Positions 18,739-29,569 of a DNA stretch of 64,000 nt are shown here, piece after piece (the first letter of the stretch is position 1; every line of letters begins with the position of its first letter). The notes below the pieces were generated by a model that saw only the letters and a list, made by a program, of their open reading frames with translations, did no database searches and was not told where the DNA came from. Origin of the DNA: Gemmatimonadota bacterium (lineage in GTDB: Bacteria > Gemmatimonadota > Gemmatimonadetes > Gemmatimonadales > Gemmatimonadaceae). The translations under genes and the position numbers were made by a program. The stretch lies in contig DAHUXM010000021.1 of the NCBI GenBank assembly GCA_027307165.1, forward strand, positions 248,001 to 312,000, written 5' to 3'.

Positions 18739-21432
18739 CTATTCGCTCCGGAGTGCGATCACGGGATCTACGCGCGTTGCACGCAACGCTGGAATGAGTG
18801 CGGCTTCAGTACCAACCAACAGTAGAATGACTGACGCGGCGCCGAACGCGACAGTGTCGACTGCGCTTATGCCAAACAGAAAGTTGCTCAGCAAACGAGT
18901 CAGCGCCACGCTCAATCCAATGCCGATGAGCAGACCCAGAACGATCGACGCGATGTTCTCCATGAGTATGAGACTCAGTACTGCACCAACGCGGGCACCG
19001 AGCGCCACGCGAAGTCCAATCTCCTGCGTGCGCTGCGTGACTCCGTACCCAACCACTCCATAGATACCCACGGCGGTTATTGCCAGAGCCAGCAGGCTGA
19101 ACAACCCAAGGACGAACACTCCGAGTCGCTGCGCCAGAACAGTGTGACCGGTCCGATCTGCGAACGTCGAGGCGTCATACACGGGTATTTCCGGAGCCAC
19201 CTCGTGCAACGCCTGCCGGATCTCACCGAGTGCGGCTGAAGGAGAGCCGCTGCTTCTTACCACCATGTCAACGGGCCGGAGTCCGGAGGTGGTGAGATGC
19301 TGGCCGAGCGACCGGTAAACCACTGGCCGTGGGTCTTCGCGAAGCTCGTGATATTTTATATCGCGTACTACGCCGACGATAATTGCCGTGTCCGTGCTGC
19401 CAAAAATGATGCGCCTCCCCAGCGGATCCCTTCCTGGCAGGAATCGACGCGCTGCGGTTTCGTTGATGATCGCAACATGCGGCGCGGCCGGACCGTCTCG
19501 ATCGTTGAACAACCGTCCGCGGAGGAGCGGGATGGAGAACGCCGGCAAGTATTGCGGCGTAATGTCATTGGTCTCAACGCCAGTATGGTCGTCCGCCGGT
19601 GGTGTGTAGCCATCCAGTTGGAATCCCTCGCTGTCGAAGCCTCGATCGAGCGGCAGCGTCGTGCCCCATGCCGCGAACCGGACGTTCGGCATGGCACGCA
19701 GCCGACGCAGCGCGGCGTCGTAGATCTGTCCCGTTCGCGCGCTGTCGCTGCGGATCAGGCCTGCATTGACTGACGCGACAGCAACATGTGCGCCGTCGAA
19801 TCCCGGATCGGTAGCAAGTGCGCGCTGCAAGCTTCGCCCAAACAAGCCGGCGCCGACAAGAAGAACGAGGCTCAACGCTACCTGCGCAATCAGCAGCGTT
19901 CTGCGCAACGTCAAACGTCGACGTCCAGCTCCGGGCGAGCCGTCCTTCAGCGCGGCGGCCATATCGCGCCGCGTGGTCTCCAGCGCTGGTGCAACGCCGA
20001 ATATCGCGCTCGCGACAAGCGCGAGGGCGATCGTGTAGATCATCACGCGCCAGTCGACGTCAACGCCGACCGTGGCGAACGAGAACCCTTCGGGCAGCGT
20101 TACGCGTGACAGTGCGCGCATCGCGGCTTGCGTCGCCACCAGGCCAACGACTGAGGAAGCGAGCGCGAGCACAGCGCTTTCGGTCAGTAACTGCCGGACC
20201 AGGCGGCGTCGTCCAGCGCCCACTGCCATGCGAATCGCGATTTCGCGGCGCCGGCTCATCGCCCGTGCAAGGAGCAGGTTGGAGACGTTGGCGCACGCTA
20301 TGAGAAGCACGATTGCAACCACCACAACCACTATCGCCGTGGCGCGTACGACAGTTCCATGTGCGATTCCGGAGATCACGACTTGGCCCGCCGACACTAC
20401 GTCGTCGCTGGTAATCGTCTTCGCGAGTGTCTGGTAGCCGTCTGGATAGGAAGCGTCCTGATTCACTGCAGATGAATGGAGTGCCGCCGTCGCCTGCTGG
20501 ATCGTCGCATCTGGAGCAAGGCGCCCCACCATGCTCAGCCACGACCAGCCGCGCCCCTCCAGATTCAATCCGTTGAACGACGTTGGCGCCAGCGCCATCC
20601 ATGCGCGGATGGTCACCCACAACTCCTCCGGCGAATCCAACTGCATCCCGTGAAAGTCGTTCGCAGCTATTCCCACGATCGTCACGGGCATGCCGTTGAG
20701 ATCGACTACTCGTCCAATCACATCCACACCATCGCGAAAGAAACGACGCGCGAAGGCCGCACTCACGACTGCGACGGGGGGCGCGCCAGGATCGTCGTCT
20801 CCTGGTGAAAGCACCCGCCCGTGCGATGGACCTACGCCAAGCACGGAGAAGTAATTGCCGCTCACAACTGCTGCCGATACCATCTCCGTACGCTTGCCGT
20901 CTGAAACGGCAGTGTTGCGGTCGCTGAATGCCGCCAGGCCGCTGAGAGCAGAGCTCGAGCGGGCGAAGTCTCGATATGAAGGATACGAGACGTGCGTGTT
21001 ATTGACTGCAACGACGCGCTCCGGTGCAGCGACGCCGGGAAAGGGATGCAACAAGAGCGCGTTCACCAGCCCGAACACCAGACCGTTCGCTCCGATGCCA
21101 AGCGCCAAGGTGAGCACTGCGGCCATCGTGAACCCACGATTTCGCGCCAGCTGCCGGGACGCGAAAACGATGTCGTTCCTCACACTGTACATGAATTCGG
21201 CGAATCGAACGTGCCGTTCTCGTTGATGCCCGATGCGATAGCACAGGTCGCGCACGCTGGCAAGACTCCCGAACCTGCGCAGCGCTTCGGTGTGCGCATC
21301 GTCGGACGCGAGCCCCGCGGCCACATATTCGCCTTCCCGCATCTCGATGTGGAAGCGCAGCTCTTCATCCACATCGTCCTCGACATCCGCCCGCCAGAAC
21401 CGCAGATACCGACGCCATGCTTCGGTCTTCAT
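18739..21432 (-). CDS. ADOP-family ABC transporter permease (MacB/FtsX-type, duplicated)
   Basis: The 897-residue protein has a charged N-terminal prefix of about 80 residues (EDDVDEELRFHIEM), a first helix (AAVLTLALGIGANGLVFGLV) and a MacB-type periplasmic domain. A first FtsX permease unit follows (VVVVAIVLLIACANVSNLLLARAMSRRREIAIR split over residues about 365-400). A second half repeats the plan, with AQVALSLVLLVGAGLFGRSL and a terminal FtsX unit containing YGVTQRTQEIGLRVALGA. Prefix plus two units is characteristic of acidobacterial duplicated orphan permeases. No ABC ATPase gene is adjacent. It starts nine bases after padR, its likely regulator. Substrate is unknown; export of toxic compounds or lipids is plausible. 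Confidence 0.9.
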   Translation of the reverse strand: MKTEAWRRYLRFWRADVEDDVDEELRFHIEMREGEYVAAGLASDDAHTEALRRFGSLASVRDLCYRIGHQRERHVRFAEFMYSVRNDIVFASRQLARNRGFTMAAVLTLALGIGANGLVFGLVNALLLHPFPGVAAPERVVAVNNTHVSYPSYRDFARSSSALSGLAAFSDRNTAVSDGKRTEMVSAAVVSGNYFSVLGVGPSHGRVLSPGDDDPGAPPVAVVSAAFARRFFRDGVDVIGRVVDLNGMPVTIVGIAANDFHGMQLDSPEELWVTIRAWMALAPTSFNGLNLEGRGWSWLSMVGRLAPDATIQQATAALHSSAVNQDASYPDGYQTLAKTITSDDVVSAGQVVISGIAHGTVVRATAIVVVVVAIVLLIACANVSNLLLARAMSRRREIAIRMAVGAGRRRLVRQLLTESAVLALASSVVGLVATQAAMRALSRVTLPEGFSFATVGVDVDWRVMIYTIALALVASAIFGVAPALETTRRDMAAALKDGSPGAGRRRLTLRRTLLIAQVALSLVLLVGAGLFGRSLQRALATDPGFDGAHVAVASVNAGLIRSDSARTGQIYDAALRRLRAMPNVRFAAWGTTLPLDRGFDSEGFQLDGYTPPADDHTGVETNDITPQYLPAFSIPLLRGRLFNDRDGPAAPHVAIINETAARRFLPGRDPLGRRIIFGSTDTAIIVGVVRDIKYHELREDPRPVVYRSLGQHLTTSGLRPVDMVVRSSGSPSAALGEIRQALHEVAPEIPVYDASTFADRTGHTVLAQRLGVFVLGLFSLLALAITAVGIYGVVGYGVTQRTQEIGLRVALGARVGAVLSLILMENIASIVLGLLIGIGLSVALTRLLSNFLFGISAVDTVAFGAASVILLLVGTEAALIPALRATRVDPVIALRSE

Positions 21433-21441
21433 GGCCGCGCT

Positions 21442-21786
21442 CTACGCTGGCTGAGTGGTGGCGCCGAGTACGGAGGCAACGGCCCCTGCGAATCGCGCCC
21501 ATGTGGACGCCTCGACGCGAAGTTGTTTTCGGCCCTTCACCGTCAGACGATAGAATTTTGCGCGGCGGTTGTTTTCCGAAAGGCCCCATTCAGCCTCGAT
21601 CAGCCCGCGCGCTTCGAGTCGGTGCAGGGCGGGGTAGAGTGAGCCCTCCTCGATGCGCAGTACGTCGTCGGTGGTCTGTTGCAGCCACCTCGCGATGGAG
21701 TATCCATGCACCGGAGCCCAACTCACCGCCTTCAGGATCAGAACATCCAGTGTGCCCTGAAACAGATCAACGCTCGGTTTACCCAT
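21442..21786 (-). CDS. PadR-family transcriptional regulator
   Basis: The 114-residue protein is a short (PadR-s2 size) winged-helix regulator: LFQGTLDVLILKAVSW, VHGYSIARWLQQ, then the wing-helix segment IEEGSLYPALHRLEARGLIEAEWG and YRLTVKGRKQL. PadR proteins repress nearby genes, usually transporters, and release DNA on binding a small ligand. It is the first gene of a two-gene unit with the ADOP permease nine bases downstream. A perfect inverted repeat lies between its -10 box and its start codon, suggesting autoregulation. Confidence 0.94.
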   Translation of the reverse strand: MGKPSVDLFQGTLDVLILKAVSWAPVHGYSIARWLQQTTDDVLRIEEGSLYPALHRLEARGLIEAEWGLSENNRRAKFYRLTVKGRKQLRVEASTWARFAGAVASVLGATTQPA

Positions 21787-21887: not shown

Positions 21888-22451
21888 TCAGGCACGCCGG
21901 AGACGCGCGAACAGTTCCCTGATCGGGAACCGGAACTCCGGTACCACATCTTCCCCATCGAGTTCGCCGTCTTCCTGCAACAGCATGGGCGCCCCGAGCG
22001 GCCTGCAAATGGTCACCGTTCGTTTTCGCGGATCGACGATCCAGACAAGCTGCGTTCCTGCAGCGAAGTATTGGTCGAGCTTTCGCGCCATGGCCGAAAG
22101 GCGATTCGAAGGGGAAAGAACCTCCACAGCCAGATCTGGCGCGCCCTCGAAATATCCCGGTCCCAAACCCTCGGCCGGAACTCGTTCCTCACGAATGAAT
22201 GCTATGTCGGGTGCACGGACCGTATCGGGTTTCCGAGTCAGGATAAAGCCAGTCTGCTCACCGAACACCACGCCAAGGTTCCGCATTTCGACATAGGCGC
22301 CCAACGCAATAGCAAGCTTCATGACTATGTAACCGTGTGGCGGGCCCGCCGGCGACATCATCATCAACAGCTCCCCATCGACGAGTTCGTAGCAATCGGG
22401 AATGTCCGGCAGCTCTTCGATGGTAAAGTGCCTCTCGGCGGTGTGACTCAT
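21888..22451 (-). CDS. Uma2-family (DUF820) putative endonuclease, copy B
   Basis: The 187-residue paralogue of the protein at 18097-18651 shares long identical runs with it (ELPDIPDCYELVDGEL, VFGEQTGFILTR, GAPDLAVEVLSPSNR) and the same predicted active-site acids and Lys (RKLDQYFAAG). The C-terminal 30 residues are more divergent. An AGGAGAG site lies about six bases before the ATG. The upstream DNA also resembles that of copy A over several tens of bases (for example CGCCACGGCCAGGAG against CGCTACCGCCAGGAG), so the duplication included the 5' region. Biological role is unknown. Confidence 0.85.
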   Translation of the reverse strand: MSHTAERHFTIEELPDIPDCYELVDGELLMMMSPAGPPHGYIVMKLAIALGAYVEMRNLGVVFGEQTGFILTRKPDTVRAPDIAFIREERVPAEGLGPGYFEGAPDLAVEVLSPSNRLSAMARKLDQYFAAGTQLVWIVDPRKRTVTICRPLGAPMLLQEDGELDGEDVVPEFRFPIRELFARLRRA

Positions 22452-22535
22452 CGGAACTCTCCTGGCCGTGGCGAATTTGCGATAAGACGTTTGTAAGATA
22501 CTCGTTGAAGCGGCGCCGAGAGCAATAAGCAGTCG

Positions 22536-23348
22536 CTACAACGCCAGCGCCAGTTGCACCGCCGTCGCCCGTCGCACTCCCGGCTCGAACGGTCCAGCTA
22601 CACGATCCTGGCTCGCCGCACTCAATCGTCCCGTGAACTTGGTTCGCGAGATCGCGCTGTTCACGTCACTCAACGCAGTGCGTGGCGTGTTGCACTTTTC
22701 GCTCAGGTGCGCGAGCACTATCTGTCGCAGGTTGCGATGCGCGACTTCGCGCGCAAGTTGTCCGGCACGCCCGTTGCTGAGATGTCCATGGCGCCCCGCG
22801 ATACGCGCGCGAACGGATGCCGGGTATGGTCCCCCATGCAGCATCAACTCGTCGTGGTTCGCTTCGAGAATCAACATGTCCAGATCCCGCATCGCATCGA
22901 TCACGCTCTGACCGGCAACACCGAGATCGTATGCGATACCCGTACGCGCGCCGGTCGAGCGCGATGTCGCGACCAGCACGACCGGCTCGGCGGCATCGTG
23001 CGACGACTTGACCGAAAGGATGTCCAGGTCACCGATCGACAGGCCATCGCCGGCGCGGAACGGAATTGCTCCGCAACCTGCCAGATCGCGACAGGCGGTG
23101 ATGGTGCCGACAGTCGCGTGCGCGGTCCAACCGTACCGCTCACACAACACGCGCACTCCGCGCACGTGGTCCGTGTGCTCGTGCGTAACGAGAACTGCCT
23201 GAATCGATTCCGGCTCTATGTCCACTGAGCGCATGCGCTCGACCAGAATGCTCGGTGCGAAACCCGCATCTATCAACAGGCGGGAGTCACCGGATTCCAG
23301 CAGCACCGCATTGCCCCGGCTTCCGGAGCCGAGCAGCCACATTCTCAT
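22536..23348 (-). CDS. MBL-fold metallo-hydrolase, WalJ/YycJ-like
   Basis: The 270-residue protein begins MRMWLLGSGSRGNAVLLES and contains the metal-binding THEHTDHVRG (HxHxDH), later SHDAAEP, LILEANHDELML and a late LAHLSEKCNTP that supplies another His. This pattern matches WalJ/YycJ-type hydrolases, which in Firmicutes are linked to WalKR signalling and double-strand-break repair; the role here is unproven. An in-frame GTG two codons upstream is an alternative start. It follows the GlmU-like gene after about 60 bases on the same strand and may be the last gene of that unit. Confidence 0.85.
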   Translation of the reverse strand: MRMWLLGSGSRGNAVLLESGDSRLLIDAGFAPSILVERMRSVDIEPESIQAVLVTHEHTDHVRGVRVLCERYGWTAHATVGTITACRDLAGCGAIPFRAGDGLSIGDLDILSVKSSHDAAEPVVLVATSRSTGARTGIAYDLGVAGQSVIDAMRDLDMLILEANHDELMLHGGPYPASVRARIAGRHGHLSNGRAGQLAREVAHRNLRQIVLAHLSEKCNTPRTALSDVNSAISRTKFTGRLSAASQDRVAGPFEPGVRRATAVQLALAL

Positions 23349-23408
23349 CGTCACCGTTACACCCGAGCGACGAAAAAGCGCCGGGAGCAGTACGGTGCGG
23401 ACGGCGTA

Positions 23409-24611
23409 TCAGGAATTGGTCGCCCGTGCATGCACCCGCGCAAGGTGTCGACGCAGCGCGTCGCCGAGCTCAACGCCCCTGCGCTGCATCATGCGTTCCG
23501 CGACAGCGATGAACTTGGATGCATGGAACGTTGCGTACGGTTCCCTCTCGCCCCACGAGAATGGCGCGACGAACTTGGGATGCGTGGCTGCGCCGAAGAC
23601 GTTTGCACCGGCGCCCAGCACGGTGCCCGTGGTGAGCATCGTCCCGATGCCGGTCTTCACATGGTCGCCGAATATGGTGCCGAGGAATTGCTGCCCTGTG
23701 TCGACGATTCCATCGGGAGTCCAGAGATGCACGCTCCCGTACGTGTTCTTCAGATTGCTGGTAGTCGTGCCGGCGCCAAGGTTCACCCATCGGCCCAGGT
23801 ACGAATGCCCGACGAAGCCAGTGTGTCCCTTGTTGGAATGGCCCAGTACGATCGTCGAGCTCATCTCCCCGCGAATCTTGCATTTATCGCCGATCGAGCA
23901 ATTGGCGACGCGATCACCGACGATGGTCGTGTCGGCTCCGATGCAACATGGGCCGACCACCCGTGTGAATGCCGAAATCGTCGCTCCCTTGCGAATCAGG
24001 ATAGGCCCCGCTGTTGCGTCGAATATCACGTACGATTCGATCGACGCGCCGCGCTCGATCGCCACCTGATGAGGTCCCAGGATTCCGGCCGGCTCTGGGG
24101 CCGTATCGATGCCAGCAGCGATGATATGGATGTCTTCCATCAGCTGCGGAGATAATTGCGCGATGAGATCCCAGATCGCGGATATCCAGCGTCCGCGGAG
24201 ACTGGTGACGCGTGAATTTATCGCCAGGGTTTCGAGCGCTTGCGAGCCGTCAGCGAGCGCGGAGGCGGGGAGCGGCTGTGTCAGCCGAACAGCGCAGATG
24301 CGACCGTCGCAGCTCCAGGCCGAATCGGTTCCTCTCAACGTTTCGTCGAGCGCTACGACGAAACGGGAATTCCCGATGATTGCGCCCGCCGGCATAACCG
24401 CGTCGCCGGCGAGGGCTGGCGGCGCATCGCCCTCCTCGAAATCGGCCAGGTGCGCGGCGCTGACGAAGCCGGCGACGTTGCCCACCAGCACCGATGCCCA
24501 GCGTTGTCGTATCAGCTCCGTGCCAGCACGCAGTTCGGAAACCGGGCGCGTGAGCGCGAACGGCTCGAACGTGCGCGCCAGTGCGTCGTCGTAGACGTAG
24601 AGCGTGGTCAT
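23409..24611 (-). CDS. GlmU-like left-handed beta-helix protein (putative sugar nucleotidyltransferase/acetyltransferase)
   Basis: The 400-residue protein has an N-terminal region of about 180 residues resembling the nucleotidyltransferase half of GlmU-family proteins (FEPFALTRPVSELRAGTELIRQRW). It lacks the pyrophosphorylase signature GxGTRMxSxxPK. The C-terminal half is a left-handed beta-helix with hexapeptide repeats (VIFDATAGPILIRKGATISAF, VGPCCIGADTTIVGD), then the NKGHTGFVGHSYLGRWVNLGAGTTTSNLKN segment split across residues about 265-295. The product may transfer an acyl group to a sugar nucleotide, or the N-half may only bind one. Its ATG overlaps the stop of the guanylyltransferase gene, so the two are translated together. 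Confidence 0.78.
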   Translation of the reverse strand: MTTLYVYDDALARTFEPFALTRPVSELRAGTELIRQRWASVLVGNVAGFVSAAHLADFEEGDAPPALAGDAVMPAGAIIGNSRFVVALDETLRGTDSAWSCDGRICAVRLTQPLPASALADGSQALETLAINSRVTSLRGRWISAIWDLIAQLSPQLMEDIHIIAAGIDTAPEPAGILGPHQVAIERGASIESYVIFDATAGPILIRKGATISAFTRVVGPCCIGADTTIVGDRVANCSIGDKCKIRGEMSSTIVLGHSNKGHTGFVGHSYLGRWVNLGAGTTTSNLKNTYGSVHLWTPDGIVDTGQQFLGTIFGDHVKTGIGTMLTTGTVLGAGANVFGAATHPKFVAPFSWGEREPYATFHASKFIAVAERMMQRRGVELGDALRRHLARVHARATNS

Positions 24612-25660
24612 GTGCGAGCCTGAATGCCGGGTGGCAGAGACTCGATGAGGCCCTTGAGATCTACAGAGCGATCGCGCGTCGTGACGAGCGTGAGTCCGTC
24701 ACGTGTGACGACGACGAGATCGGATACGCCAAACAACACCACTGCGTTGCCTTCGGCGTGGACCACGTTGTTGGTCGCGTCGGACACGACCGCGGTCCCG
24801 CTCACGACATTTCCGTGACCGTCCTGCACGCGTACGCGATGCAGTGATGCCCACGTGCCGACATCGTCCCAGCCGAAATCACCGGGAACCACATATACGC
24901 AGTCGCTGCGCTCGAGTACGCCAACGTCGACCGATACGGACTTGACCGACGCGAAGAATCGTGCGAGCGAGTCGGGCTTTCCATCGATCTCGTCGAGAGC
25001 CGGCGCAACTTCGGGAGTGTGCTTTCGCACTTCATCGAGAAAGTCGCCGACGCGCCACACGAAAATGCCCGAGTTCCAGAGACACGAGCTTGCGCATAAC
25101 TCGACCGCGCGCTCACGTGTGGGCTTCTCGATGAAGCGGCGCACTCGACGCGCCGGCGAGCCGGCTACCGCGTCTCCGGGCTCGATGTACCCGAAGCCCG
25201 GATCGGGACGGGTGGGAACTATGCCGACGGTCACCAGTCCGTGCTGTTCGCGCGCAACGCCCACGGCGCGCTCGAGTGTCGCGCGAAATCCCGGTTCGTC
25301 TGCGATCGCCCAGTCCGCGTGCACGCAGATCATCACGGTCTCGGGGCCAGCGCGTCGCGCGATCTCGGCTGCTGCGAATGCGAGCGCCGCAGCCGTTCCG
25401 GCCGGCCGAGGCTCCGGGACGATATTGGCGCGTGACAGCTCCGGAACAGCGGCGCAGATCGGATCGACGAGCGATGCGTTTGTAAGTACGAGAGTGCGCT
25501 CGTGCGGAACCAGGTCGTGCATCCGCTGCAGCGTAGCGACCAGCAACGGTCGCTCGTCAACGAGCGGAAGCAGTTGCTTTGGCCGCTCCGGCGTGCTGAG
25601 GGGCCAGAACCGCGAGCCTATGCCTCCGGCGAGCACGACGCTCCAGGCCGGCTCAGTCAT
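24608..25660 (-). CDS. manC: Mannose-1-phosphate guanylyltransferase
   Basis: The 350-residue enzyme forms GDP-mannose from mannose-1-phosphate and GTP for polysaccharide or glycoconjugate synthesis. The nucleotidyltransferase signature VVLAGGIGSRFWPLSTPERPKQ is at residues about 8-29. RPAGTAAALAFAAAEI, the metal-site HADWAI, and FIEKPTRERA with LWNSGIFVWR follow; these are all conserved in this family. It is the short form without the C-terminal isomerase domain. Its ATG overlaps the TGA of the receiver-domain gene and its TGA overlaps the ATG of the GlmU-like gene, giving a three-gene coupled unit. Confidence 0.9.
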   Translation of the reverse strand: MTEPAWSVVLAGGIGSRFWPLSTPERPKQLLPLVDERPLLVATLQRMHDLVPHERTLVLTNASLVDPICAAVPELSRANIVPEPRPAGTAAALAFAAAEIARRAGPETVMICVHADWAIADEPGFRATLERAVGVAREQHGLVTVGIVPTRPDPGFGYIEPGDAVAGSPARRVRRFIEKPTRERAVELCASSCLWNSGIFVWRVGDFLDEVRKHTPEVAPALDEIDGKPDSLARFFASVKSVSVDVGVLERSDCVYVVPGDFGWDDVGTWASLHRVRVQDGHGNVVSGTAVVSDATNNVVHAEGNAVVLFGVSDLVVVTRDGLTLVTTRDRSVDLKGLIESLPPGIQART

Positions 25661-26067
25661 TCGTCCTCGGCATCCTTGATCCCGGTCAGGCGCGCCACTA
25701 GCGCGTACAATTTCTTCGGACTGAATGGCTTGGTGACGAATGCGTTGGCTCCGCTCGCCAACGCTGCGCGCTCCTGTTCATCCTGGCCCGCCGCTGTGAG
25801 AATGATTGCGGGTATGTCACTGCGCAGCGTACCACGCAGATCCTGCAGTACGTCGAGCCCGGTTCGCTCCGGCATCATGAGATCGAGCACGACCAGGTCG
25901 AACCGCGTGTCGCCTGCGTGAAGCGATTCAATCGCCTCTCGCCCATCGAATGCGAGCGTGACGTCGAACGGTCCCGCCTCGAGCTTCATCTTGATGATGC
26001 GACCAATGTGCGGCTCGTCGTCCGCGACGAGTACTTGCTTGCGCTGCTGTGCGTTTTCTGTTGCCAA
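25657..26067 (-). CDS. Single-domain response regulator (receiver domain)
   Basis: The 136-residue protein is a stand-alone CheY-type receiver with acidic pair Asp16-Asp17, phospho-acceptor Asp62 in VVLDLMMPE, Thr91 in ILTAAG and Lys113 in FVTKPF. There is no output domain. The start is TTG at 26067, with AGGA eight bases upstream. It lies ten bases after a Roadblock gene, and its stop overlaps the start of the mannose-1-phosphate guanylyltransferase gene. No histidine kinase is adjacent. Control of a process by protein-protein contact, such as polysaccharide production or motility, is an inference. Confidence 0.92.
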   Translation of the reverse strand: MATENAQQRKQVLVADDEPHIGRIIKMKLEAGPFDVTLAFDGREAIESLHAGDTRFDLVVLDLMMPERTGLDVLQDLRGTLRSDIPAIILTAAGQDEQERAALASGANAFVTKPFSPKKLYALVARLTGIKDAEDE

Positions 26068-26077
26068 CGAACTGTTC

Positions 26078-26431
26078 CTAGACCAACGCGGCCATTGACG
26101 ACCGGTGTTGTCTGAGGTCGTACAGCAGATCGGCGAGCGCTACGTCAGCGGTCGCGGAGACGAACAGCAGCGCCTGATCGGATAGCCGCAACACGACGCC
26201 GTAGCCGCGCTCGAATTCGAGCACCGCCATGGCGGCCGTTCCGGATCCGGCAGCGTCGCCCAACTGACTGGCTGCGGTGGCCACCGCCGGCACGCGGGCG
26301 GCCAGCGCCTCGGCGTGATTCTGAGCCGTATCGTGCGTCTCGATCAGGAGGCCATCGGCGCCCAGAATCACGACCGCTTCAACCCCCCGGCGGTTCTGGA
26401 TCGCTTCCGTCAACTCGCGTAGTGTCGCCAT
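26078..26431 (-). CDS. Roadblock/LC7 domain protein
   Basis: The 117-residue protein matches the Roadblock/LC7 (MglB-like) fold: ELTEAIQNRRGVEAVVILGADGLLIET split over residues about 6-32, a central helix (EALAARVPAVATAASQLG), MAVLEFERGYGVVLRLSDQALLFVSATADVAL divided over the last strands, and a final helix DLLYDLRQ. Such proteins often regulate small Ras-like GTPases such as MglA in polarity or motility, but no GTPase gene is next to it here. It is the first gene of the minus-strand unit running through the receiver and sugar-nucleotide genes. Confidence 0.85.
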   Translation of the reverse strand: MATLRELTEAIQNRRGVEAVVILGADGLLIETHDTAQNHAEALAARVPAVATAASQLGDAAGSGTAAMAVLEFERGYGVVLRLSDQALLFVSATADVALADLLYDLRQHRSSMAALV

Positions 26432-26533
26432 GCGTTGAAAAGTACCGTCCCGACGGCTATTCTACGAGGCTACGCCACGGGGAATTCTGCTCTCTGGCGG
26501 GTACTTCCATTTCTAACCGCTCCGCTTCAGCGC

Positions 26534-27127
26534 ATGCATCTACGCTATCCCGCCGCGGCGGCCGCGGCCATTGTCGGCCTTGCGCTCGCCACAGGCTGTA
26601 AGGACACGAACATACTTCAGGCGGATCTGCCTGTGGTTACGGATACGCTCGTCGCGTATGCCTTGAGCGGCACCTCTGCCAGCCTTCCGAGCGCACTGTC
26701 ACTGACCGTTCGATCGACTGTTCGAGTGGATGGCACGGGTTCTTTCGACGTGGGATTCGACTTCGACAGCACGGGCCGGGTGGTGGTGAGTCCGGTGCGG
26801 GTGCTGGTGAATCAGCTTTCCGGCGCTCCGCAGGTCGGAATCCAGACGATGTTCACGACTCCGTACGACAGCATCAAGACCGCGCCGGGTGGCTACTACC
26901 GTCCGGATACGGCTATCGTCGTGTCGCCGGGCCAGCCGTTCGTGCTGCTCGTAAACGGCCGGACGACGGCGAGCTCGATCTGTATCTACGATCCTGCGCC
27001 CACCCTCTACGCGAAGGTCGTGATCGACAGCACCAAGCCGACCACCACGCGCGCGATCTACATGCGGGTGACGACCGATCCGAATTGCGGCTACAGATCG
27101 CTGGTGCCCGGCCTTCCATCGAACTGA
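26534..27127 (+). CDS. Hypothetical lipoprotein
   Basis: I do not recognise a family. I start at the ATG at 26534 because it gives a signal peptide (HLRYPAAAAAAIVGLALATGC) with a plausible lipobox ATGC and lipidated Cys at residue 21. An in-frame ATG 99 bases upstream would place a polar segment before it. The mature part of about 175 residues is beta-rich and Thr/Val-rich (VVTDTLVAYALSGTSA, SLTVRSTVRVDGTGSFDV), with two Cys in the second half. It is probably a lipoprotein of the cell envelope. It lies seven bases before serS and may share its transcript. Confidence 0.65.
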   Translation: MHLRYPAAAAAAIVGLALATGCKDTNILQADLPVVTDTLVAYALSGTSASLPSALSLTVRSTVRVDGTGSFDVGFDFDSTGRVVVSPVRVLVNQLSGAPQVGIQTMFTTPYDSIKTAPGGYYRPDTAIVVSPGQPFVLLVNGRTTASSICIYDPAPTLYAKVVIDSTKPTTTRAIYMRVTTDPNCGYRSLVPGLPSN

Positions 27128-27133
27128 CCGCCC

Positions 27134-28408
27134 GTGCACGATTTACATCTGCTTCGTGAGAAACCCGAGACTGTCCGCGACGCGCTGAGCCGTCGCAACA
27201 TGCTGGAGTCGAGCGGCGCGCTCGTGGATCATGCGCTTGCGCTCGACGCCGAGCGCCGATCGATCATCCAGCGTGTCGAGGAGATCAAGGCAAATCGCAA
27301 TGCGGTGACGCAGCAGGTCGCCAAACTGAAGCGCGCGGGTGAGGATGCCGAATCGTTGATCGCCGAAGGCAGAGCGCTCGGCGACGAGATAGACGCGTTG
27401 CAGATGCATCTGACTTCGACGGAAGAAGAATTATCGGCCGTCGTGCTGCAGATTCCGAATGTGCCGCTTGCGGACGTTCCAGCCGGCGGAGAAGAGAACA
27501 ACGCGGTGGTCAGAACGTGGGGAACTCCGCGCGCGCCTGAGGGCGTGCTCCCGCACTGGGAGATCGGTGCGAAGCTCGGGCTGATCGATCTGGAGCGCGG
27601 CGCCAAGATAAGCGGCTCCGGTTTCATCGTGTATCGCGGCGAGGGCGCTCGACTGGTACGCTCACTGATGAACCTCATGCTCGACACGCACACGCGCGAG
27701 CACGGATATCAGGAGACCTGGGTTCCCGCCGTTGTCAATCGCGAGTCGATGACGGGCACGGCGCAGTTCCCCAAGTTCGAGGATGAGCAATACGGGCTGA
27801 GCGACGAGGAGCTGTTTCTCATTCCGACCGCGGAAGTTCCGCTCACCAATCTCTATCGTGACGAGATAATTCCCGAGTCGGACCTGCCGCGGACATTCAC
27901 CGCTTATTCGCCCTGCTTCCGACGCGAGGCAGGCGCGCATGGCAAGGACACGCGCGGTCTGCTTCGCGTGCATCAGTTCGACAAGGTCGAGCTGGTACGG
28001 TATGCGCATCCGGACCGGTCGCTGGAAGAGCACGAGCTGATCACCGCGCACGCAGAGCGGATTCTCCAGTTGCTCGAATTGCCGTACCGGGTGCTGTTGC
28101 TCGCAGCAGGAGACACCGGTTTCGCGAGTGCCAAGACTTACGATCTCGAGGCGTTTTCACCGGGCGTCGGGAAGTGGCTCGAGGTATCGTCGTCCAGCAA
28201 CTTCATGGATTTTCAGGGGCGGCGAGCCAACATTCGCTATCGTCCGACCGCTGGCGGGAAGCCACGTTTCGTTCACACGCTCAACGCATCCGGGCTTGCG
28301 TTTCCGCGCATCATCGCGGCCATTCTCGAGCAGCATCAGAACGCGGACGGAACGGTTCGTGTGCCGGCGGCGCTCGAACCGTATTTCGGCGCGTCGGTGA
28401 TAAAGTAG
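27134..28408 (+). CDS. serS: Seryl-tRNA synthetase
   Basis: The 424-residue class II synthetase has the N-terminal coiled-coil arm (residues about 25-105, RVEEIKANRNAVTQQVAKLKRAGEDAESLI split) that recognises the long variable arm of tRNA-Ser. The catalytic domain contains motif 2, FTAYSPCFRREAGAHGKDTRGLLRVHQFDKVEL (in parts), and motif 3, HTLNASGLAFPRIIAAILE. TAEVPLTN is also present. Length is normal. The start is GTG at 27134. A histidine kinase gene follows after three bases. Confidence 0.98.
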   Translation: MHDLHLLREKPETVRDALSRRNMLESSGALVDHALALDAERRSIIQRVEEIKANRNAVTQQVAKLKRAGEDAESLIAEGRALGDEIDALQMHLTSTEEELSAVVLQIPNVPLADVPAGGEENNAVVRTWGTPRAPEGVLPHWEIGAKLGLIDLERGAKISGSGFIVYRGEGARLVRSLMNLMLDTHTREHGYQETWVPAVVNRESMTGTAQFPKFEDEQYGLSDEELFLIPTAEVPLTNLYRDEIIPESDLPRTFTAYSPCFRREAGAHGKDTRGLLRVHQFDKVELVRYAHPDRSLEEHELITAHAERILQLLELPYRVLLLAAGDTGFASAKTYDLEAFSPGVGKWLEVSSSSNFMDFQGRRANIRYRPTAGGKPRFVHTLNASGLAFPRIIAAILEQHQNADGTVRVPAALEPYFGASVIK

Positions 28409-28411
28409 AGC

Positions 28412-29569
28412 GTGCGCCGCTCCACGCCGCTGTGGGCAGTTGTATTCGGCGTGGTTGCGCTGCTCACGTGGTACGTGTTCTACATGCGAAGTGTGGTGAC
28501 CGACCTGCGCGCCGAGGCGTCGCGCGTGGGCAAGATGTACGCACGCGTGTACGACGCGCTGAGCGATCCCAACACTGACGCGACTACCGCGCTGCAGGAC
28601 CTGTCGGCTCTGATGCGGGAATCCGGCGTGCCGATCATAGTTACGGACGCGCGTGGCTCCGTTACGGCATCCGCGAACTTGCCGAAGGACATTCTGGGGA
28701 GCAACGCACGGATCGCGCAGTACGCACGCGAGCTCGCGCGTGAGAACAAGCCGGTTGTCGAGCCCGGCGTTGGGACAGTGTATTTCGGCAACACGCGACT
28801 CGTGGAAGGGCTTCGCATCATTCCGGCCTTGCAGGCTCTGCTGATCGCAATGTTCCTGACTGCCGGGATATACGCATTGCGAACGCGTGGTCGAGCCGAC
28901 CGGGAGCAGATCTGGGCGGGAATGGCGCGGGAATCAGCGCACCAGCTCGGCACACCGCTTTCGAGCATGAGCGGATGGATCGAGCTGTTGCGCGATCACG
29001 ACTCGGGCGACCCGGTGATGGCGCACGCGCTCGCGCACATGGATGGCGACCTGGAGCGATTGCGACGCGTCGCGTTCCGCTTCGAGCGGATCGGCCGTCC
29101 GCCGCGACGCGAAAAGGTGGACGTGGGGGACGTCGTGGAGCGTGTAGCGACGTACTTTCGTGCCCGCGTGCCAACGCTTGCAAAGGCTGTCACGATACGA
29201 TCGGTGCGCCGCGGCGGATCGCTTGTCGTGGACGGAGATCCGGTTCTGCTCGAATGGGCGATCGAGTCACTGGCCAAGAACGCGATCGACGCACTCGCCG
29301 GACGCGGCGGACGTGTTACACTATCTGTACAGGAACTTCCTGAAGGTCGAGTCCGCATCAGAGTAAAGGACAACGGACCTGGCGTTCCGCGTGAGTTGAG
29401 GAAGCGAATCTTCGACGCTGGATTTTCCACCAAGCAGAAGGGGTGGGGAATCGGGCTATCCCTCGCCAAGCGCATCGTCACCGAAGGACATGACGGCCGG
29501 CTGCTGCTGCAATCCGGCACGCGTGGCGCGACGTTTGACATAATTCTGGATCATGAATCGACAAGTTGA
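28412..29569 (+). CDS. Sensor histidine kinase, membrane-anchored
   Basis: The 385-residue protein has an N-terminal helix (LWAVVFGVVALLTWYVFYM), an extracytoplasmic segment of about 100 residues, and a second helix (ALQALLIAMFLTAGIYAL). The dimerisation motif ARESAHQLGTPLSSM (phospho-acceptor His177) and a HATPase domain follow: N-box SLAKNAIDAL, G1 VKDNGPGVP, and G2 GWGIGLSLAKRIV. The HQLGTPLS box is typical of one histidine-kinase subgroup. The GTG start is three bases after the serS stop, and the 3' end overlaps pcrA by 17 bases. No response regulator lies beside it. Confidence 0.9.
   Translation: MRRSTPLWAVVFGVVALLTWYVFYMRSVVTDLRAEASRVGKMYARVYDALSDPNTDATTALQDLSALMRESGVPIIVTDARGSVTASANLPKDILGSNARIAQYARELARENKPVVEPGVGTVYFGNTRLVEGLRIIPALQALLIAMFLTAGIYALRTRGRADREQIWAGMARESAHQLGTPLSSMSGWIELLRDHDSGDPVMAHALAHMDGDLERLRRVAFRFERIGRPPRREKVDVGDVVERVATYFRARVPTLAKAVTIRSVRRGGSLVVDGDPVLLEWAIESLAKNAIDALAGRGGRVTLSVQELPEGRVRIRVKDNGPGVPRELRKRIFDAGFSTKQKGWGIGLSLAKRIVTEGHDGRLLLQSGTRGATFDIILDHESTS

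Follow-up and report, generated by a model that had tools for sequence, protein, structure and literature searches.

In a stretch of 64,000 nucleotides from a Gemmatimonadota bacterium (assembly GCA_027307165.1, contig DAHUXM010000021.1, positions 248,001 to 312,000; the whole stretch is called the window below), a short Roadblock/LC7 protein and a single-domain receiver are encoded at the head of an operon for sugar-nucleotide enzymes. The operon is ancient and widespread in the Gemmatimonadota, a phylum of soil and water bacteria. Our tentative reading, which we hold at a little under an even chance, is that the Roadblock protein serves the MglA/MglB switch as an accessory, resembling MglC, and that it is co-expressed with genes for envelope precursors together with a receiver that can be phosphorylated.

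On the minus strand of contig C25 in this genome (G000), the order of genes is Roadblock, receiver, manC, alternative glmU and MBL-fold hydrolase. The first gene (26078..26431) encodes a short Roadblock/LC7 protein of 117 aa, P0004 (PF03259, 7.5e-14, 51.7 bits). It is followed by the genes for the receiver (25657..26067; 136 aa, TTG start; PF00072, 1.1e-23, 83.9 bits), for ManC, a single-domain mannose-1-phosphate guanylyltransferase (24608..25660; PF00483, 6.4e-32, and PF22640), and for an alternative bifunctional GlmU of UDP-GlcNAc synthesis (23409..24611; TIGR03991, 324.3 bits against a cut-off of 225.3). These four genes had been named in a first-pass annotation of the window, made from its sequence; they lie on the minus strand at the coordinates given there, in an operon-like neighbourhood, and the ATGA-type overlaps it reported were confirmed at receiver/manC (25657..25660) and manC/glmU (24608..24611). 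The Roadblock and receiver frames do not overlap; the gap is 10 bp, and an AGGA Shine-Dalgarno-like motif, as judged by eye, begins inside the Roadblock stop codon. The gene for the MBL-fold metallohydrolase (22536..23354; PF00753/PF12706) runs in the same direction 54 bp downstream of glmU and belongs to the conserved unit as its last gene. The divergent intergenic region of 102 bp (26432..26533) presumably holds the operon promoter. A promoter scan of the operon region stayed at chance level, the single sigma-70-like site of this interval lying on the other strand. A terminator scan gave five terminator-like sites where 2.5 were expected, none of them between operon genes on the coding strand; of the sites, two are on the minus strand, one inside the MBL gene and one where it ends. 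No known RNA, riboswitches included, was found at gathering scores in 22000-29000.

Conservation was examined in a phylum sample of about 7 kb to either side of alternative glmU, comprising 120 loci; these came from 119 genomes, one of which contributed two. Loci were searched with profiles built from the window proteins, and the start codon nearest to the profile start was taken by script; G001 and G003 were left out of the counts because they gave no alternative-glmU match over the cut-off. The order robl-receiver-manC was present in 48 of the 120 loci, continued by glmU in 46 and by mbl, without glmU, in 2. Another 20 loci had robl-manC-glmU without a receiver, 18 had the receiver without robl (17 receiver-manC-glmU and 1 receiver-glmU), and 5, all from another class, had glmU alone. 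The remaining 29 had manC-glmU with neither signalling gene; among them G065 has its Roadblock gene on another contig, and the locus of G118 is truncated where a contig ends. Wherever both signalling genes occurred, robl was upstream of the receiver gene (48/48), with a spacing of at most 100 bp in 47 loci. Spacing was at most 30 bp in 62 of 65 loci for receiver-manC, 105 of 112 for manC-glmU and 81 of 97 for glmU-mbl, and was exactly -4 in 26, 65 and 39 of them, respectively.

This order recurs in dozens of genera, far beyond chance. Since it recurs and the spacing is tight, the sequences argue against both findings that the first-pass annotation had listed as contradicting a coupled unit, namely an order unique to one strain and separate transcription of the Roadblock and receiver genes; the operon genes are probably co-transcribed. 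Because manC and glmU persist when either or both of the signalling genes are missing, the latter are optional. We conclude that the operon itself is a conserved housekeeping unit, to which the Roadblock and receiver genes are separable additions. An obligate pair of the two was rejected on the 20 loci with the Roadblock gene only and the 18 with the receiver only.

The first-pass annotation had taken the two proteins for an MglB/CheY-like switch. As a unit this switch did not hold, because each part occurs without the other and because the Roadblock protein is not MglB by sequence. P0004 reached 17.8 bits against the MglB model NF052242, whose cut-off is 200, although this model is Thermus-type and even the evident MglB of G000, P0009, scores only 77.4 bits with it. 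P0009, of 170 aa, matches Myxococcus xanthus MglB with 122 bits and is encoded directly before the MglA-like GTPase P0008 on contig C37, in what we take to be the order dnaX-recR-mglB-mglA. The distant MglA-type GTPase that had been suggested as a thing to look for is thus present in the genome. P0004, on contig C25, is not encoded beside mglA; its low score and the true mglB-mglA pair on another contig rule it out as MglB. P0004 and P0009 are the only two PF03259 matches of G000, both over the cut-off. Since P0009 adjoins the MglA-like GTPase and matches MglB, P0004 is an orphan Roadblock protein in the sense used in the available text of Wuichet and Sogaard-Andersen (2014, PMC4316618).

The Roadblock proteins of the loci are 115-122 aa long (68 sequences) versus 170 aa for MglB, and are without the extensions that MglB has at its N and C termini. 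The accessible part of one report describes the same lack of extensions for MglC (PMC7949163). An AlphaFold2 model of P0004, built with 27 aligned relatives, had a pLDDT of 93 and a pTM of 0.86. Structure comparison (Foldseek, VIA-align) matched it, among others, to an Asgard Roadblock protein, a Streptomyces Roadblock protein of the CvnB type, MglB, LAMTOR2 and MglC, the last (7ct3) with a Z of 12.5 and 23% identity over 106 aligned residues. By profile, the nearest solved relatives were an Asgard Roadblock protein (67.6 bits), CvnB5 (3leq, 62.6 bits), a second Asgard Roadblock protein (51.5 bits) and Rv3364c (45.5 bits), presumably the Roadblock protein of a mycobacterial conservon. At the place of the FDI motif by which MglC binds MglB, as judged from residue numbering, D26 is conserved, L28 replaces I and there is no F25; according to the part of PMC7949163 at hand, Roadblock folds in general have an acidic residue followed by Gly in this turn, so D26 is not diagnostic. 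Divergent Roadblock genes were seen at L241 (G188; 72 bits by profile) and L245 (G244; 58 bits), both missed by a search with the single P0004 sequence, and G188 has lost MglB.

The distribution of the Roadblock gene follows that of MglB. Matches to P0004, P0009 (MglB) and P0008 (MglA) were found in 69, 77 and 91 genomes of a 121-genome sample, and in a 346-genome sample the Roadblock protein was found in 195 and MglB in 212. A reading of the two tables of the larger sample places an MglB match in 191 of the 195 Roadblock-positive genomes versus 21 of the 151 Roadblock-negative ones. On a tree of 131 genomes, 77 had both, 44 had neither, 5 had the Roadblock gene only and 5 had MglB only; this raw table is not random, because 18 genomes were added for lacking one of the two or as relatives of such genomes. 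The tree counts exclude G245 and G328, whose operon is cut by a contig end, and count the Roadblock gene of G065 as present in both tree tests; neither G257, where manC was not found, nor G336, where a contig end truncates manC, was counted as a Roadblock loss, and the MglA and MglB trait lists were compiled by hand from result tables. MglA was present in all 82 Roadblock-positive tree genomes and in 23 Roadblock-negative ones. The receiver tracked MglA more loosely (78 tree genomes with both, 22 with neither, 27 with MglA only and 4 with the receiver only).

Clean loss of the Roadblock gene with the receiver kept was found in eight genomes from three genera of the window's own family, the Gemmatimonadaceae-level f1 (G027, G170, G248 and G290; G172; G046, G094 and G112). 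None of the eight has an MglB match and six keep an MglA match, a pattern suggesting that the Roadblock protein is partnered with MglB and not with MglA. Four genomes, G046, G094, G112 and G188, carry a full-length MglA (78-81% identical) and no MglB match, and are natural MglA-without-MglB lineages. Many genomes also carry, often immediately downstream of one or two additional Roadblock genes, a second GTPase of the MglA type (52-66% identical; for example, G048:C229:10787-12050).

In M. xanthus, the short Roadblock protein MglC links RomR, which has a receiver domain, to MglB and contributes to setting the GTPase-activating protein activity at the rear pole, as related in the accessible portions of three papers (PMC10329633, PMC12719032, PMC7949163). 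The orphan Roadblock protein may likewise act on MglB as an adaptor or modulator, and the receiver may relay the signal of a kinase to this MglA/MglB switch. The Roadblock protein would then bind MglB or MglA, or the receiver, and polarity or precursor supply could be affected. The two genes form an optional signalling cassette at the head of the manC-glmU-MBL operon in many lineages, and through co-transcription the amount of switch parts would be tied to envelope-precursor synthesis, that is, to growth.

Several observations weigh against this proposal. Independent pairs for the Roadblock gene and MglB among the 131 genomes gave 4.2 pairs in the same direction, 0.0 in the opposite one and 2.8 with no difference over 7 pairs (median p 0.125), and the first 113 genomes gave 3.5 the same and 0.0 opposite over 6 pairs (p 0.125). 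The tree-corrected association is therefore suggestive, not significant and underpowered. Five tree genomes have the Roadblock gene without MglB1 (G030, G315, G188, G217 and G243), and MglB occurs without the Roadblock gene in G083, G006, G018, G050 and G118, the contig of the last being cut near manC. The P0004 profile is equally far from MglC (23.1 bits) and MglB (23.7 bits), the receiver lacks the RomR-type C-terminal helix that binds MglC, and P0009, aligned by eye, keeps only R115 of the MglC-binding patch K14/R115/K120 of MglB. The Roadblock protein and the receiver need not co-occur, and linkage by itself proves little because the entire block is frozen, serS and pcrA included.

The frozen block leads to an explanation that we consider a serious possibility, although less than an even one: the Roadblock and receiver genes share a promoter within a rearrangement-poor housekeeping block, and their role, in motility polarity or elsewhere, has nothing to do with sugar nucleotides. 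Divergent from the operon, and kept across the class, are genes for a conserved lipoprotein (26534..27127, plus strand; kept in 111 loci), serS (27134..28408, plus strand; synteny in 110 loci), a sensor histidine kinase (28412..29569, plus strand; PF02518) and pcrA; the names serS and pcrA are presumptive and come from the sequence. The retention of these neighbours and the fact that manC-glmU is unchanged without robl, the receiver gene or both, as in the 29 loci with neither, agree with incidental linkage. It accounts less well for the placement of the signalling genes, since the Roadblock gene is at the operon place in each of the 68 fetched loci carrying it, and receiver profile matches lie there too, bar one weak distant match. 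Moreover, receiver and manC frames overlap or abut in 38 of 65 loci, which is typical of selected co-translation. The lipoprotein was modelled with AlphaFold2 at a pLDDT of 89, and a fold search against the PDB gave no match with E below 0.02.

The catalytic residues of the receiver speak for the proposal of an MglA/MglB accessory. The receiver domain was matched at residues 12-124 of 136, with 12 residues beyond it and no output domain. Among relatives at the locus, D17, D62 and K113 are conserved in 66/66 and T91 in 64/66. As the acidic pocket, phospho-Asp, Thr/Ser and Lys are conserved, phosphorylation of the receiver is plausible. One possible source of phosphate is the histidine kinase of the serS-HK-pcrA cluster, for which the receiver would be the output partner in a two-component system split over the divergent promoter. 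Kinase and receiver genes lie within 2.5 kb of each other, and each is a conserved member of the block. Nevertheless, we think this pairing unlikely, because 11 of 104 complete loci lack the kinase gene, 7 of them with the receiver retained, and because 38 of the 93 loci with the kinase have no receiver. The presence of the kinase does not track that of the receiver, and an obligate partnership is not supported.

The enzymes encoded downstream appear to be of a general kind. The best solved relatives of ManC by sequence are the single-domain mannose-1-phosphate guanylyltransferases 2x5s (3.2e-55) and 2cu2; G000 has one ManC match, and many relatives of its family have two. The GlmU-like protein matches TIGR03991 along residues 5-388 and over the curated cut-off, a full-length likeness with no difference evident to a family that is itself a hypothetical equivalog. 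Canonical GlmU (TIGR01173) was over the cut-off in 0 of 121 phylum genomes versus 9 of 14 control genomes, and alternative GlmU was over the cut-off in 116 of the 121, the exceptions being G001, G003, G030, G064 and G092. In G092 the protein reaches 192.8 bits and the contig ends nearby. In G030 (L158) and G064 (L157), both of genus g10, manC overlaps mbl by 4 bp, glmU is gone and no canonical GlmU is over the cut-off; the direct abutment of manC and mbl indicates genuine loss, which weakens the case for calling alternative GlmU essential. The surroundings, to about 10 kb and beyond, hold housekeeping genes (serS, pcrA, gatAB, rpsA, mutL), and one glycosyltransferase gene was seen at a distance of 10 kb, in the mutL-bacA region. 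On the minus strand, past the downstream end of the conserved block, are genes for a Uma2-family protein (21888-22451) and then for a PadR regulator and a MacB-type permease (18739-21786).

No exopolysaccharide genes were found in the operon or adjoining it in these surroundings, and an exopolysaccharide cluster was rejected. Because alternative GlmU is the only GlmU type over the cut-off in nearly all genomes, ManC is single in G000 and the surroundings are housekeeping, we read the enzymes as a general supply of envelope precursors rather than an exopolysaccharide cluster: the manC-glmU-MBL core would make GDP-mannose and UDP-GlcNAc. The extracellular polysaccharide role suggested by the first-pass annotation is not indicated on the same evidence. 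Direct control of ManC and GlmU by a Roadblock-receiver switch, setting where or when such a polysaccharide is made, is very improbable; physical linkage and the ATGA overlaps speak for it, but the enzymes are housekeeping copies and the Roadblock gene or the receiver gene stands alone in 38 of the 86 loci with at least one. We give hardly any credence to an MglA polarity switch wired to envelope growth, in which the Roadblock protein and the receiver would place or tune ManC and GlmU as the GTPase dictates.

Among known systems, the MglC-MglB-RomR module of M. xanthus likewise has a short Roadblock protein without MglB extensions, along with a protein containing a receiver domain and, at another site, the genes of an MglA/MglB pair, as far as the accessible text describes it (PMC10329633, PMC7949163). 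It differs in that the Gemmatimonadota Roadblock and receiver genes sit with sugar-nucleotide genes, in addition to the equal distances and missing helix given above. CvnB of the actinobacterial conservons is likewise a short single Roadblock protein, with the CvnB5 and Rv3364c scores already mentioned. Conservons are operons of histidine kinase-like, Roadblock, DUF and GTPase genes in the portion of PMC13343842 consulted, and the window operon has neither a GTPase nor a DUF gene. The closest general category is that of orphan MglB homologues, Roadblock genes away from any MglA. The available text of the 2014 survey counts 328 such genes in 1,611 genomes, places Group 1 MglA in Gemmatimonadetes and regards no orphan Roadblock protein as characterised at that time; that text contains no manC-glmU linkage, and the conserved context is new relative to it (PMC4316618).

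Outside the phylum, the best 80 of at least 573 confirmed manC loci, with flanks of at most 4 kb, gave no Roadblock match, which does not prove absence elsewhere. Alternative glmU was present in only 4 of these 80, those titled Gemmatimonadetes, Longimicrobiales or Gemmatimonadales, which have parts of the window's block in common with it. No description of a Roadblock gene combined with one for mannose-1-phosphate guanylyltransferase was found in the open-licence literature, and the conserved setting of these known parts, an orphan Roadblock protein and a receiver, is apparently undescribed.

In nearly a whole phylum, alternative GlmU is apparently the only GlmU. For most Roadblock genes that are not encoded near MglA no function is known; here, one orphan family occupies a constant genomic position in much of a phylum, and its presence parallels that of MglB. 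Its operon home and its co-distribution with MglB therefore offer a concrete, testable link through which a bacterial Ras-like switch may be connected to the supply of cell-envelope precursors.

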